This document shows positions 10,539 through 15,423 of a stretch of DNA of 64,000 nucleotides, piece by piece (position 1 is the first letter of the stretch; every line of letters begins with the position of its first letter). The stretch is from the NCBI GenBank assembly GCA_001899065.1, contig MKUZ01000009.1, positions 186,001 to 250,000 on the forward strand, given 5' to 3'. A program made the position numbers and the translations under genes. Source of the DNA: Devosia sp. 66-22 (lineage in GTDB: Bacteria; Pseudomonadota; Alphaproteobacteria; Rhizobiales; Devosiaceae). A model generated the notes under the pieces. It had not been told where the DNA came from, did not search any database, and was given only the letters and a program-made list of their open reading frames with translations.

Positions 10539-11030
10539 ATGCCCAAGGACGCCCCGGCCGATCAGGCCCTGATCGAAGCCATCGCCAAGCTCCTCAACGA
10601 GCAGAACCTGGCCGAGATCGAGATCGAGCGTGAAGATCTCCGCGTCCGCGTCACGCGCAGCTACGCCTCCACCGGCGTCCAGCAGGTGATGGTTCCAGCC
10701 GCGCCGCCGCCGGTGGCGCATGCCGCTCCGGCGCCCACCGCGCCTGCCGGCGCCGCCGCGAGGGCCGGCGCGCCCGCCGACGACCTCGCCTCCAATCCGG
10801 GCACGCTGACCTCGCCCATGGTCGGTACCGCCTATCTCTCGCCCGAACCGGGCAAGCCCGCTTTCGCCGCCATCGGCACCCGCGTCTCGGAGGGCCAGAC
10901 CGTCCTCATCATCGAGGCGATGAAGACGATGAACCAGATTCCGGCGCACAAATCGGGCGTCGTCACCCGTATCCTGGTCGACGATGCCGCGCCGGTCGAA
11001 TACGGCCAGCCGCTCGCGGTCATCGAATAA
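10539..11030 (+). CDS. accB: biotin carboxyl carrier protein of acetyl-CoA carboxylase
   Basis: Carries the biotin that is carboxylated by AccC and passed to the AccAD carboxyltransferase, the first committed step of fatty acid synthesis. The 163-residue product has a helical N-terminus, an Ala/Pro-rich hinge (about 53-80) and a C-terminal biotinyl domain with EAMKTMN; the biotinylated lysine is residue 129. The E. coli version is EAMKMMN, and the Met-to-Thr change after the lysine is seen in related bacteria. One base separates its stop from the accC start, so translation is likely coupled. Confidence 0.97.
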   Translation: MPKDAPADQALIEAIAKLLNEQNLAEIEIEREDLRVRVTRSYASTGVQQVMVPAAPPPVAHAAPAPTAPAGAAARAGAPADDLASNPGTLTSPMVGTAYLSPEPGKPAFAAIGTRVSEGQTVLIIEAMKTMNQIPAHKSGVVTRILVDDAAPVEYGQPLAVIE

Positions 11031-11031
11031 G

Positions 11032-12375
11032 ATGTTCAACAAGGTCCTGATCGCAAACCGGGGCGAGATCGCGCTCCGCGTGCTGCGCGCCTGCAAGGAA
11101 CTGGGCATCTCGACGGTCGCGGTCTATTCCACCGCCGACCGCAACGCCATGCATGTGCGCCTCGCCGACGAGAGCGTGTGCATCGGCCCGCCGCCCGCCA
11201 AGGACTCCTACCTCAACGTCCCCTCGATCCTCGCCGCCTGCGAGATCACCGGCGCCGACGCCGTACATCCGGGCTATGGCTTCCTCAGCGAGAATGCGCG
11301 CTTTGCCCGCATCCTGAGCGAGCACAAGATCACCTTCATCGGCCCGTCCGAGCACCACATCTCGATCATGGGCGACAAGATCACGGCCAAGCAGACCGCC
11401 GTGGAGCTGGGCATTCCCGTGGTGCCGGGCTCCAAGGGCGAAGTCGCCACCGAGGCCGAGGCCAAGGCGACTGCCGCCGAGATCGGCTACCCCGTGCTCA
11501 TCAAGGCCACCGCCGGTGGCGGCGGACGCGGCATGAAGGTGGCCCACACCGAGGCCGACGTCCTCCTCGCCTGGTCCACCGCCCGCTCCGAGGCCAAGGC
11601 CGCCTTCGGCAACGACTCCGTCTATATGGAGAAGTACCTGGGCAAGCCGCGCCACATCGAAGTCCAGGTGATGGGCGACGGCCAGGGCAATGCGGTGCAT
11701 CTGGGCACCCGCGACTGCTCGCTGCAGCGCCGCCACCAGAAGGTGTGGGAAGAAGCCAACGCCCCCACCGTCCCCGCCGACCAGCGCGCCAAGATCGGCG
11801 AGATCTGCGCCGCCGCCATGCGCAAGCTCAAATATTCCGGCGCCGGCACCATCGAGTTCCTCTACGAGAACGGCGAGTTCTACTTCATCGAGATGAACAC
11901 GCGCCTGCAGGTGGAGCATCCGGTCACCGAACGCATCACCGGCGTCGATCTCGTCTACGAGCAGATCCGTGTCGCCTCGGGCGAAAAGCTCAGCCTCGAG
12001 CAGAAGAACATCACCTTCACCGGCCACGCCATAGAGGTGCGCATCAACGCCGAGGACCCGCAGACCTTCACGCCGTCCCCCGGCAAGATCAGCTTCTACC
12101 ACCCCGCGGGCGGCGTCGGCGTCCGCATCGATTCAGCCGTCTACGCCGGCTATTCGATCCCGCCTTACTACGACAGCCTGATCGGCAAGCTGATCGTCTA
12201 CGGCCGCACCCGCGAAGAGTGCCTGATGCGCCTCCGCCGCGCCGTGGACGAGTTCGTCGTCGACGGCGTCAAGACCACCCTCCCCTTGTTCCAGCGCCTC
12301 ATCAAGGAACCCGAAATCCTCGCGGGCAATTACGACATCCACTGGCTGGAGAAGTATCTGGGGATGAAGCACTAG
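11032..12375 (+). CDS. accC: biotin carboxylase subunit of acetyl-CoA carboxylase
   Basis: ATP-grasp enzyme that carboxylates AccB-biotin with bicarbonate. The 447-residue product has the expected N-terminal MFNKVLIANRGEIALRV, the glycine-rich ATP loop KATAGGGGRGMK (about 156-167), the metal-binding Glu residues in FYFIEMNTRLQVEHPVTE (about 283-300) and a C-terminal biotin carboxylase domain. Length equals that of E. coli AccC. The stop codon is followed after one base by the left arm of a 41-bp inverted repeat (see 12377). Confidence 0.97.
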   Translation: MFNKVLIANRGEIALRVLRACKELGISTVAVYSTADRNAMHVRLADESVCIGPPPAKDSYLNVPSILAACEITGADAVHPGYGFLSENARFARILSEHKITFIGPSEHHISIMGDKITAKQTAVELGIPVVPGSKGEVATEAEAKATAAEIGYPVLIKATAGGGGRGMKVAHTEADVLLAWSTARSEAKAAFGNDSVYMEKYLGKPRHIEVQVMGDGQGNAVHLGTRDCSLQRRHQKVWEEANAPTVPADQRAKIGEICAAAMRKLKYSGAGTIEFLYENGEFYFIEMNTRLQVEHPVTERITGVDLVYEQIRVASGEKLSLEQKNITFTGHAIEVRINAEDPQTFTPSPGKISFYHPAGGVGVRIDSAVYAGYSIPPYYDSLIGKLIVYGRTREECLMRLRRAVDEFVVDGVKTTLPLFQRLIKEPEILAGNYDIHWLEKYLGMKH

Positions 12376-12376
12376 G

Positions 12377-12417
12377 CCTTCGAGGCTCGCTGCGCTCGCA
12401 CCTCAGGCTGAGGGGCG
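12377..12417 (+). repeat. left arm of 41-bp inverted repeat flanking a GIY-YIG gene
   Basis: A 41-base sequence starting CCTTCGAGGCTCGCTG and ending CTGAGGGGCG, one base after the accC stop. Its reverse complement recurs at 12802-12842 with 39 of 41 positions identical. It holds small internal palindromes (GAGG...CCTC and CCTCAGGCTGAGG), the character of REP-type repeats. Confidence 0.9.
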
Positions 12418-12470
12418 CCGGTGGACAGGCCGCCGGCCGATCGCCTACGATCCCTTCTTGGGGCATCTTC

Positions 12471-12785
12471 ATGGGCGCTTGGGTCTACATCATTCGATGC
12501 GCCGACGGCTCATACTACGTCGGCAACACGCGCAAGCGCGTCGAGCAGCGCTTTCAGGAGCACGTTGACGGCGTGTTCCCCGGATACACCTCTGCCCGTC
12601 GTCCTCTCGAACTGGTCTATGCAGAGGCGTGCGAGACGCTCATCGCCGCCTTCAATCGCGAGCGCCAGATCAAAGGCTGGAGCCGCCGGAAGAAGGAAGC
12701 CCTGATCGGCGACCGTGCAGACGCGCTACCTGCGCTCTCGCGACGCCTGTCCGTCCAGAGAACGCCACCACGCTCGCCGGAGTAA
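12471..12785 (+). CDS. small GIY-YIG nuclease-domain protein
   Basis: A 104-residue stand-alone GIY-YIG protein of the UPF0213/YhbQ-like type. The core motif reads VYIIRCADGSYYVG (residues 5-18), followed by the conserved Arg of RVEQRFQEH and the metal-binding Glu of FNRERQIKGW, so the active site looks complete. The family cuts DNA in repair, recombination and homing contexts; the role of these minimal members is not settled. The gene is bracketed by two inverted 41-bp repeats and, with them, fills the whole gap between the convergent accC and ABC permease genes. The Arg-rich C-terminal ~25 residues are poorly conserved-looking. Confidence 0.88.
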   Translation: MGAWVYIIRCADGSYYVGNTRKRVEQRFQEHVDGVFPGYTSARRPLELVYAEACETLIAAFNRERQIKGWSRRKKEALIGDRADALPALSRRLSVQRTPPRSPE

Positions 12786-12801
12786 CTCGCCACGACCGCG
12801 A

Positions 12802-12842
12802 CGCCCCTCATCCTGAGGTGCGAGCACAGCGAGCCTCGAAGG
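12802..12842 (-). repeat. right arm of 41-bp inverted repeat flanking a GIY-YIG gene
   Basis: Inverted copy of 12377-12417 differing at two positions (C/T and C/A). It ends four bases before the stop codon of the ABC permease gene, so the repeat-gene-repeat unit abuts coding sequence on both sides. The palindromic core reads CCTCATCCTGAGG. Confidence 0.9.
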
Positions 12843-12846
12843 ATGC

Positions 12847-15423
12847 CTACCCCAGCGCCCGCAGATACTGGGCCGGCCGCGTCGACAGCGCGCTCCACGT
12901 CGTCGCCGCGCCCGTCACGATCGTCAGCACCACCGAACCCGCCAGCACGCCAAGGATCAGCACCGGGTCGACGCCGAAGCCGACGTCCATGCCCGCGAGC
13001 TTGATGATCGCATAGGCGCCGGCGATGCCCACCACCGTGGCGAGCGCCGCCGCGAACGTGCCCAGCAGCGCGTATTCGAGCGCGAACACGCGCACGACAT
13101 TGCCGCGCGTCGCGCCCAGCACCTTGTTCACCACCGCGTCGGATTCGCGCTGCTTGCGGCCGGCGGCCATGGTGCCGGCGAGCACCAGCAGGCCGTTGAT
13201 GACGGCGAGGCCGCCCACGATGTTCACCGCCACCGAGAGCTGGCCGAGGATATCGGCCGCCTGGTTGAGCGCTTCGCCCACCGGGATGAAGGTCACGTCC
13301 TGGTACTGGCGCGCGAGGGCCCGTTCGAGGTCCTTCTCGTGGCCTTCCTCGGCCTTGATGGTTGCCAGGTTGGTGCCCGGGAAGTCGGCGAAGGTGCCAG
13401 GCGTCGCCGTCACCATGAAGTTGAGGCCGCTCTGGAACTGGAAGTCGCGCAGATTGGCCACCGTTACCTCGATCGACTCGCCGAACAGCGACAGTTCGAT
13501 CGTGTCGCCCGGCTTGATCCCGAGATTGTCGGCAATGTCGTCCTTGAGCGAAACCAGCGCCGGGCCGTCGTAGTCGGCCGGCCACCATTCACCCGCGGTG
13601 ACGGTGGAATTGTCCGGCATGACGTCGCTCCACGTCATCAGGATTTCCTGCGCCCCGATGAAGTACTGCGTCTCGCCGCCGAGATTCTTGTTGCCGCGCA
13701 GTTGCTCCGACGGCACGCCCTTGATCTTGGTCACGGCGGCCTTGATCATCGGCGAGTGCTGGTAGCTGGTGACATAGCCGGTGCTGTCGAGGAACTCGCC
13801 CAGGGTCACCACTTCGTCGTCGAACAGATCGGTGGCAACGAATGTCGGCGCGTCCTTGAGCACCTGGCCGGTGAGCTGGTTGCGCACATTGGCAGTGAGG
13901 ATCACGATCACCAGCAGCATGGCGAGGCCGAGACCGAGCGACATGATCACCAGCGGCGCCGGCGAGCCGGGGCGGTGGATGCCGCGGAAGGCGTTGCGCA
14001 GCGTCGCGCTCGGCATCGGCGGCAGGATGCGCAGCACCCATTGCAGCGCCACACCGGCGAAGCGGAGCAGCAGGAACGCCACGATCACGCCGATCGCGTA
14101 CCAGAAGACGAGGCCAAAATCCTTGGTCGTGATGTAGGCGAGCCCGAAGATCAACAGCCCCGCCACGATCAGCGGCACCAGCACGCCGAACTCGATATAT
14201 TCGCGTGCGCGCAGGCCCTGGACGCTGGTGCCCACGGTGCGGAACAGCATCGCCGGCTTCATCTTGCGCGCGTTGACAAGCGGCAGGTAGGAGAACGCGA
14301 AGGCCGCCAGCACGCCGAAGCCGAGCGCCGTCGCCAAAGACGGGAAATGCACCGAGGGCGGCAGCTCGACCGCGAGGATGCGGCCCAGCACCGGCAGCGC
14401 CGCGGCCGTCAGGCCCGCGCCGATCACCAGCCCGATGACGATGCCCACCAGCGAGAGCAGGCCGATCTGGGTGAAGAAATGCACCATGATGCGCGAACCG
14501 GTGGCGCCCAGGCTGCGCAGCGTCGCGATCGCCTTCTGGCGCTCGCCGATATAGGCGCTGACGGCGTTGGAGATGCCGATGCCGCCCACCAGGAGGGCGC
14601 TGAGGCCCACGATCAGCAGGAAGCGCACGAACAGATCGTAGAGCCGCGACAGGTCGCCTGCCGCGTCATAGGGCGACTGCACCTTCCACTGCGGATCGCC
14701 GGCGAAATGCGCGGTCACGGCCGGCTGCTGCGTGCGGTAATCGCCCTCGTTGAGCTTGATCTTGTAGCCGAACTGCGTCAGCAGCCCCGGCAGCGGGGCG
14801 CGGGTATTGGGGTTGGACTGCTGCGCCTCGATCGACATCACCGCCGTCAGGCCCAGGTGGAAGCCGCGCAGCGCCCCGTTGGGGAGCGACCCGAGCAGGC
14901 CGCGGACCTCGAACTCGGTCTGGTTGACGCGGAAGCGCCCGCCCAGATCGATGCCGAGGCGGTCGAGGATCACCGGGTCGACGATGGCGCCATAGACGCC
15001 GTCCACCGGCTTCAGCAGATCGGCCGGCTTGGCGCCCGTTTCGAGCTGCGGGCTGACCACATTGCCGTAGAGCGGGTAGTTGTTGTCGACGGCATAGATA
15101 TCGAGGAACACCGTATTGCCGCTGTCGTCCACGGCGTCGGCGCGGGCGTTGGAGCTGATCGTCTCGGACACCGTGCCGAGCGACTGCAGATAGGCCAGTT
15201 CGCCCGCATCGGCGCGGCGGTCGGCGCGGACCGCCTGCAGATCGCCGCCCATCAGCGTGTTGGCGTTGCGCAGGATCGCGTCCTGCAGCGCCGCACCCAC
15301 CGAGCTCACGCCGGCAATGGTGCCGACGCCGAGCGCAAGGCAGGCGAGGAGAATGCCGAAACGGCGGAGATCGCCGCGCAGGTCGACGATGGCGACCCGC
15401 ATCCAGTTGCCGAGCGCGTTCAT
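12847..15423 (-). CDS. FtsX-family ABC transporter permease (YbbP-like)
   Basis: Inner-membrane permease of 858 residues. It has an N-terminal transmembrane helix (about 22-45), a large periplasmic domain (about 50-255), a first FtsX block of three helices (about 260-385), a second membrane pair near 415-470, another periplasmic domain and a final FtsX block (about 735-850). This duplicated arrangement matches YbbP-type exporters of unknown substrate, related to LolCE and MacB mechanotransmission systems. Its start overlaps the stop of the ATPase gene in an ATGA, so the two are translationally coupled. Confidence 0.92.
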   Translation of the reverse strand: MNALGNWMRVAIVDLRGDLRRFGILLACLALGVGTIAGVSSVGAALQDAILRNANTLMGGDLQAVRADRRADAGELAYLQSLGTVSETISSNARADAVDDSGNTVFLDIYAVDNNYPLYGNVVSPQLETGAKPADLLKPVDGVYGAIVDPVILDRLGIDLGGRFRVNQTEFEVRGLLGSLPNGALRGFHLGLTAVMSIEAQQSNPNTRAPLPGLLTQFGYKIKLNEGDYRTQQPAVTAHFAGDPQWKVQSPYDAAGDLSRLYDLFVRFLLIVGLSALLVGGIGISNAVSAYIGERQKAIATLRSLGATGSRIMVHFFTQIGLLSLVGIVIGLVIGAGLTAAALPVLGRILAVELPPSVHFPSLATALGFGVLAAFAFSYLPLVNARKMKPAMLFRTVGTSVQGLRAREYIEFGVLVPLIVAGLLIFGLAYITTKDFGLVFWYAIGVIVAFLLLRFAGVALQWVLRILPPMPSATLRNAFRGIHRPGSPAPLVIMSLGLGLAMLLVIVILTANVRNQLTGQVLKDAPTFVATDLFDDEVVTLGEFLDSTGYVTSYQHSPMIKAAVTKIKGVPSEQLRGNKNLGGETQYFIGAQEILMTWSDVMPDNSTVTAGEWWPADYDGPALVSLKDDIADNLGIKPGDTIELSLFGESIEVTVANLRDFQFQSGLNFMVTATPGTFADFPGTNLATIKAEEGHEKDLERALARQYQDVTFIPVGEALNQAADILGQLSVAVNIVGGLAVINGLLVLAGTMAAGRKQRESDAVVNKVLGATRGNVVRVFALEYALLGTFAAALATVVGIAGAYAIIKLAGMDVGFGVDPVLILGVLAGSVVLTIVTGAATTWSALSTRPAQYLRALG

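Follow-up and report, generated by a model that had tools for sequence, protein, structure and literature searches.

Stand-alone GIY-YIG nuclease genes between inverted tagged palindromes: a candidate spreader for a class of bacterial REP-like repeats

Closest described systems and the unit in the window

CGTC REPs were described by Di Nocera et al. (2013; PMC3733652) as repeats that "apparently lack a dedicated transposase," and what moves them is a question raised by that survey. Its CGTC-1 repeat is dRS3, which, according to an excerpt of PMC3898611, has the form ATTCCC(N8)GGGAAT and occurs in nearly 700 copies in each meningococcal genome. In RAYT/TnpA-REP systems (GTAG REPs, REPtrons), short, dispersed palindromes tagged on one side, often in inverted pairs, flank the gene of a DNA-processing enzyme. 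The locus described here, which lies in a 64,000-nucleotide stretch of DNA from Devosia sp. 66-22 (the window), resembles the latter systems in all of these features but differs in its enzyme, a GIY-YIG nuclease and not an HuH/Y1 transposase, and in its tag, which is CCTCAT in the window class and GTCAT/CGTC in a sister set of related genes, and not GTAG. The system behaves like a RAYT-REP unit yet is not one, as it lacks the transposase and the tag that define such units; by function, it belongs with the REP-plus-enzyme systems, its enzyme being unrelated to theirs. The free-standing GIY-YIG homing endonucleases (I-TevI type) share with the window protein the catalytic domain family and presence or absence at fixed sites, whereas the window protein is of the stand-alone Slx1/UPF0213 type, is surrounded by its own dispersed repeats, and is encoded in intergenic DNA.

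The link of GIY-YIG genes to CGTC REPs is the new part. We found no relevant paper linking GIY-YIG with REP, RAYT, or dRS3 in the open-access literature (preprints excluded), the ten papers in which GIY-YIG and RAYT both occur having been set aside as irrelevant from their titles. PMC3733652, according to which these repeats have no dedicated transposase, contains no occurrence of "GIY," which is also absent from PMC12306157 and PMC6006769, both of which cite that survey, and from PMC8266576, on TnpA-REP.

The features of the window unit and its neighbors are as follows.

10984..12375, + strand: left neighbor, biotin carboxylase accC (named in the preliminary description of this DNA and by eye)
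12377..12420, + strand: left arm, a repeat of the CCTTCGAGG...CCTCAGGMTGAGG class; 43 of 44 bases the same in the related locus L009
12421..12470, no strand: left spacer, weakly conserved (29 of 52 aligned columns against L009)
12471..12785, + strand: GIY-YIG nuclease gene, 104 aa, Slx1/UPF0213 type (PF01541; Protein Data Bank entries 1zg2 and 1ywl; alignments)
12799..12842, − strand: right arm, inverted copy of the left arm; 42 of 44 bases the same in L009
12847..15423, − strand: right neighbor, ABC-type permease (named in the same way)

The two 44-nt arms are inverted and 93% complementary, with 2 differences in a 41-nt core, which bears out the earlier claim of a gene between inverted arms with 39 of 41 identities. 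When the upstream flank of the gene was aligned to the reverse complement of its downstream flank, the score was 42, whereas 1000 shuffles gave at most 19 and 611 other anchors in the window at most 20; the pairing of the arms is thus far above chance level. The tight fit that had been noted was also confirmed by the ORF ends: a single base separates the upstream ORF end at 12375 from the left arm, and four bases lie between the right arm and the convergent ORF end at 12847. The claim that the arms carry REP-like internal palindromes holds only in part for these two copies, where the hairpins are short (chiefly the 5-bp CCTCA-GGA-TGAGG) and the arms fold no better than shuffled sequence (z −0.5 to −1.3); it often holds for related copies, as described below. 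A search of positions 12200-13000 against Rfam matched no family, an NCBIfam search gave no match, and the GTAG tag is absent from the window arms. Set against the description of CGTC REPs, the right arm reads CCTC-ATCCT...AGGAT with a long inside, the arm as a whole folding no better than shuffles, and it does not contain ATTCCC(N8)GGGAAT, nor does its partner; the window arms are at best a divergent, CCTC-tagged relative of CGTC REPs. In the window's own genome, three copies of the arm were found at up to 3 mismatches, two of which are the window arms. The lone third copy (L008; C7:60745-60781) lies just 3' of a gene, with no partner and no nuclease gene nearby.

The ORF at 12471-12785 matched Pfam PF01541 (GIY-YIG, E 8e-16) and no other family. 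Among solved structures, 1zg2 (E 4e-11) and 1ywl (E 8e-8), both of UPF0213 proteins, are closest in sequence; UPF0213/YhbQ is presumably the same group as COG2827. Such UPF0213 proteins are assigned to the minimal stand-alone Slx1-like branch of the GIY-YIG nucleases, and the marks of the domain are its GIY and YIG motifs together with an Arg in the center and a Glu toward the C terminus (excerpt of PMC1564403). The window protein agrees with this branch in being a stand-alone domain of ~100 aa with conserved Tyr, Arg, and Glu. Tyr-6, Tyr-16, Gly-18, Arg-27, His-31, Glu-64, Lys-68, Trp-70, Arg-72, and Lys-75 are invariant in alignments of 25 and 24 proteins that cover the window subfamily and the sister set, and, in our reading, Tyr-6, Tyr-16, Arg-27, and Glu-64 probably correspond to the marking residues of the domain. 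The excerpt of PMC1564403 describes no repeat association for the UPF0213 and Slx1 nucleases, and that paper has 0 occurrences of "palindrom." Matches at ~35% identity were also obtained in 10 phage records.

Association of GIY-YIG genes with their own palindromes

Two further GIY-YIG genes in the same genome (L002 and L003) adjoin clustered palindromes of a different sequence, of which 30 copies were found genome-wide (up to 2 mismatches), 6 of them within 500 nt of these two genes; therefore, a systematic test was begun. An alignment of the proteins of the window, L009, L002, and L003 matched 92 of the 150 genomes searched from the order, and the first 100 places listed outside the own genome, with up to 20 kb each, were taken as the sister set. 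Inverted flank pairs (score ≥25) were detected at 58 of 100 sister-set genes (1 of 101 gene hits having been dropped for want of flank), compared with 14 of 1848 anchors within these loci. Among tetramers beside 7-bp hairpins within 400 nt of the sister genes, TCAT (16.8-fold) and GTCA (14.6-fold) were the most enriched, followed by TGGA and GGAT, which represent the other end of the element; GTAG was not among the 25 top-listed tetramers. The sister-set element has the form GTCAT-hairpin-ATCCA with a variable stem. Elements of our classes A and B agree with the text description in PMC3733652 in having a CGTC/TGTC/CCTC tag, an AT stem start, a 4-5-nt loop, and a CCA tail. As in REPtrons, these are genes flanked by their own dispersed repeat.

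A TCAT-hairpin was present within 400 nt of the gene at 74 of 100 sister loci, and two or more at 62. The raw density of elements fell from 3.33 per kb in the nearest 250 nt to ~0.3 per kb far away from the gene, but we did not rely on this alone because the flanks are intergenic, and hence used intergenic, length-matched, and gene-size controls, all based on a home-made gene caller. The element was found in 113 of 180 intergenic segments adjoining the GIY-YIG gene compared with 75 of 866 others, and the difference held across all length classes. In the size control, at least one element adjoined 63 of 90 GIY-YIG genes, 17 of 165 other small genes, and 93 of 940 larger genes; elements on both sides were seen at 38 of 90, 2 of 165, and 3 of 940, respectively. 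Covariation counts on a further alignment (A3) were rejected as evidence, being biased, as the elements had been picked for pairing.

The subfamily of the window protein was matched (alignment A4, E ≤1e-20) in at least 46 of 397 genomes, the best 12 candidates per genome having been scored. Its repeat is of another class. The core CCTCAGGATGAGG (up to 1 mismatch) was present within ~600 nt of the gene in 28 of the 30 window-subfamily loci listed, the window included, and on both sides in 21 of the 30, an approximate figure given that a contig end displaces at least one locus; within 500 nt of the sister-set genes, it was found at 1 of 101. Further, CTTCGAGG (up to 1 mismatch) accompanies 102 of 112 core matches (37 loci), at a distance of up to 75 nt and on the side expected. 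The sequence that the core and CTTCGAGG enclose varies and can often form a hairpin, with 47 of 72 distinct inner segments exceeding 95% of mononucleotide shuffles; in these copies, the claim of internal palindromes stands. In Methylobacterium bullatum and M. aquaticum, window-class repeats bracket the gene on both sides, the M. aquaticum gene being matched in two pieces. The earlier statement that similar repeats are abundant in related genomes, often beside GIY-YIG genes, is correct for the relatives (2757 exact core copies across the 397 genomes) but not for the own genome with its three arm copies. Rather than arms scattered with no enrichment beside GIY-YIG genes, we observed the opposite, a strong and subfamily-specific enrichment (63 of 90 versus 17 of 165 in the sister loci, and 28 of 30 versus 1 of 101 for the window core). 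In-frame stops interrupt 13 of 51 window-subfamily matches (e.g. L191, L197, L203, L205-L207, L213, and L215), as expected for a decaying selfish gene.

On Sphingomonas plasmids, window-like GIY-YIG genes lie beside nrdR and an RNA methyltransferase gene and between rnc and era (L187 and L188). No window-class repeat was found at these operon-embedded genes, the sole nearby TCAT-hairpin being inside a neighboring coding gene, and they are possibly a domesticated housekeeping branch.

The association extends beyond the taxonomic class. In a sample of 299 genomes from one phylum, 77 contained the gene at E ≤1e-20. Of the 30 loci listed, the 24 new ones were examined; an element lay within 400 nt of the gene in 23 of these (14 of 15 in other classes, where the element at one locus, L241, resembles a chance match in coding DNA), and the inverted flank score was ≥25 in 12. 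A 2.17-Mb record of Neisseria gonorrhoeae, which is filed as a plasmid, has its GIY-YIG gene flanked by GTCATTCCCGCGCAGGCGGGAATC-like copies, that is, by dRS3; these class A elements have the form ATTCCC(N8)GGGAAT.

Each nuclease also tends to have its own palindrome. In 13 genomes with several sister genes, stems were identical in 29 of 48 pairs within a locus and in 14 of 114 between loci. Upstream stems of a gene agree with its downstream stems in 56 of 80 cases, but agreement is also seen in 11 of 27 repeat pairs distant from the gene, and part of the agreement within loci is a local effect. When mapped on the protein tree (n = 71), the hairpin class required 19 changes, compared with a minimum of 24 in 300 shuffles. 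The signal across families is modest: the nearest protein of another family had the same hairpin class in 34 of 71 cases (shuffled mean 25.9, maximum 41). One genome contains three paralogues, 74-77% alike, at unrelated places; synteny of close pairs by tblastx, which is noisy in GC-rich DNA, was used solely for pairs with zero shared flank.

At the level of whole genomes, at least 5 class A/B elements were counted in 81 of 92 gene-bearing and 19 of 58 gene-less genomes (p 4e-12, relatedness ignored; counts near ~47 per genome are lower bounds), and at least 5 exact window-class cores in 35 of 46 genomes with the subfamily and 35 of 351 without it (p 3e-21, relatedness ignored). Repeats also occur without the gene: a count of 10 or more is reached for class A/B elements in 16 of the 58 gene-less genomes and for window-class copies in 29 of the 351. 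The gene-less state may include misses, as the best 12 candidates were scored, and those 29 genomes were rescored, which gave weak matches in 12 (best 4e-17, in G072) and none at E ≤1e-20. Judged by genus codes, 21 of the 29 fall in genera with a gene-bearing member, which fits gene loss with repeats left behind; in genera holding both states, no clear difference in repeat number was apparent by eye.

Y1 (RAYT-type) transposases were found in 24 of the 150 genomes and in none of the other 126, and they showed no significant association (p 0.06 to 0.5). The Y1 transposase family PF01797 was absent from the window's own genome at E 0.001. A RAYT as the driver of the repeats is not supported by these results, and of the parallel to RAYT and REP sequences drawn in the preliminary description, the likeness in behavior is apt, while the transposase itself is not found in this genome.

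Presence and absence of units at fixed junctions

Comparison of related genomes at the window site had been proposed as a means of finding empty-site alleles, and alleles without the unit were found. Among the 30 permease loci listed from 81 genomes, accC and the permease gene lie side by side in 5 genomes, the own genome included. The unit is present at this junction in the own genome and in G004 (MAG PMG_193, locus L009, identical across 3843 bases), and it is absent from the other three (G005, G008, and G018); two further junctions, described below, likewise exist with and without a unit. The same unit is thus not a constant of this place in all relatives. The G005 junction consists of a short gap holding a terminator-like palindrome. 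In G008 (L012:849-1479), a small gene pair replaces the unit, its second protein being weakly HicB-like (PF15919, below the cut-off), and a pair of the same kind was recognized by eye in G018 (L014:2341-3060). The accC-permease junction seems to take up small insertions repeatedly. Between the window and L009, the arms are identical in 43 of 44 and 42 of 44 positions, the gene in 235 of 316, the left spacer in 29 of 52, and the end of the left neighbor in 537 of 601.

The second junction, at hisS (named by eye), was compared in 12 congeners, in 7 of which both neighbors are kept with a gap of <800 nt; the remaining 5 loci are not comparable, the left gene not being found or another gene lying in between. 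Three of the seven carry a class B unit (L170, L175, and L179). In three others, gene-less window-class repeats occupy the site, L172 and L173 having inverted copies of the repeat and L176 a single one, and L171 holds a CCTTCGAGG remnant next to a hisS segment 98% identical to that of a carrier. In genus g34, we also note related GIY-YIG units just 3' of aminoacyl-tRNA synthetase genes (thrS and hisS by eye; L163 and L168).

The third junction, between fnrL and a regulator gene on Sphingobium plasmids (records H50-H61), holds a 383-nt unit in 7 records (H50-H56; 3 aligned), the filled copy of TomTYG73 being frameshifted. In L259 and L260, a solo palindrome lies exactly where the filled unit sits; that of L260 reads exactly like the sequence that would remain if the stretch between the ACCCCGGG copies in the left and right arms were deleted, and that of L259 is off by two bases. 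The solo palindrome is absent from L261, L262, and L266, and by eye, L261 and L262 have another hairpin-like sequence. No target-site duplication was seen by eye at this junction, the one site that was aligned for this purpose. On Rhizobium plasmids, the same GIY-YIG gene is accompanied by two inverted repeat pairs in L184 (1801-3017) and by one in L265 (1552-2490), a difference that represents recent gain or loss of a repeat pair.

What may spread the repeats

We consider that the GIY-YIG nuclease probably cuts its own repeat and spreads it, as a minimal selfish REP-like unit, a reading to which we assign a probability of roughly 0.6. The build of the unit, the specific association, the cognate pairing, the presence and absence at fixed junctions, the solo-repeat alleles, and the conserved domain residues are observed, while cutting of the repeat, the form of DNA that is cut, and the mode of transfer are inferred. 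Speaking against the reading are the repeat-rich genomes without the gene, the lack of a clear difference in repeat number within genera of both states, the modest signal across families, the stems shared by some pairs distant from the gene, the three arm copies in the own genome, the aligned site with no visible target-site duplication, and the two Sphingomonas genes with no window-class repeat. The unit would consist of a stand-alone Slx1/UPF0213-type nuclease gene between inverted copies of a palindrome recognized by its enzyme, and every nuclease subfamily, often every paralogue, would have its own cognate palindrome. Where DNA is single-stranded, as at replication, the palindrome may extrude to form a hairpin, and the nuclease would read this hairpin together with its tag (GTCAT/CGTC-like, or CCTCAT in the window class) and nick or cut at the hairpin base or at a resident repeat. 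Repair would then copy the repeat, or the whole repeat-gene-repeat unit, to a new intergenic place, by homing-like copying or by transposition. Deletion between the arms would remove the gene and leave gene-less repeats or a solo repeat; the dispersed REP-like copies would then be footprints and non-autonomous copies.

The GIY-YIG enzyme is thus a strong candidate for the spreader of a large bacterial repeat class. More tentatively, and with a chance that we place somewhat below even, the repeat-nuclease units may constitute a class of mobile element that is absent from the papers searched, in which a Slx1-type enzyme of ~100 residues alone mobilizes tagged palindromes, supplies the missing enzyme of CGTC REPs and dRS3, and follows a palindrome code specific to each subfamily. 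The units would deserve a class of their own if movement were demonstrated. Given a GIY-YIG partner that is specific and cognate, what moves CGTC REPs can be addressed directly with a single small protein and an oligonucleotide. If the reading is true, dispersal of the REP type has evolved on two occasions from nucleases that are unrelated, and the common "GIY-YIG nuclease family protein" would have a role.

The main rival is that the enzyme is a homing-type parasite of existing repeats: the REPs would spread otherwise, and the gene would be copied into a cut resident REP or REP pair, the repeats being target and not cargo. Consistent with this, two Sphingobium plasmids have a solo repeat exactly where others have the filled unit, and three have none; so are the many genomes with repeats and no gene and the fact that the gene lies in the same "+-" arrangement as gene-less pairs do (23 of 41 and 13 of 20). 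However, the CGTC repeats have no other known dedicated enzyme (PMC3733652), a Y1 transposase was not found in 126 of 150 genomes, and the association at the genome level and the cognate stems of individual paralogues also count against it. We regard the homing parasite as unlikely, though to be taken seriously.

Less probable still is a host or domesticated structure-specific nuclease that trims or resolves palindromes and whose flanking repeats regulate its own gene or terminate its transcription, with no mobility involved. Slx1 cuts branched DNA (excerpt of PMC6902002), the window arms occupy the spot of the terminator-like palindrome of the congener G005, and between two species the arms are more conserved than the gene, all of which would suit a host function; against it stand the patchy presence at fixed junctions, the 13 window-subfamily matches (of 51) that contain in-frame stops, and the location of paralogues at unrelated places.

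That repeats simply gather around small intergenic accessory genes of whatever kind could explain the low-density elements throughout the sister loci, but it is made very improbable by the difference between GIY-YIG and other small genes within the same loci, by the length-matched intergenic control, and by two gene sets having two different repeats. Finally, the equal-length inverted arms around one gene recall the terminal inverted repeats of an ordinary insertion sequence whose transposase has been replaced, an explanation that we can scarcely credit, as no transposase gene lies between the arms and as the arms belong to a dispersed class that occurs without the gene, too.
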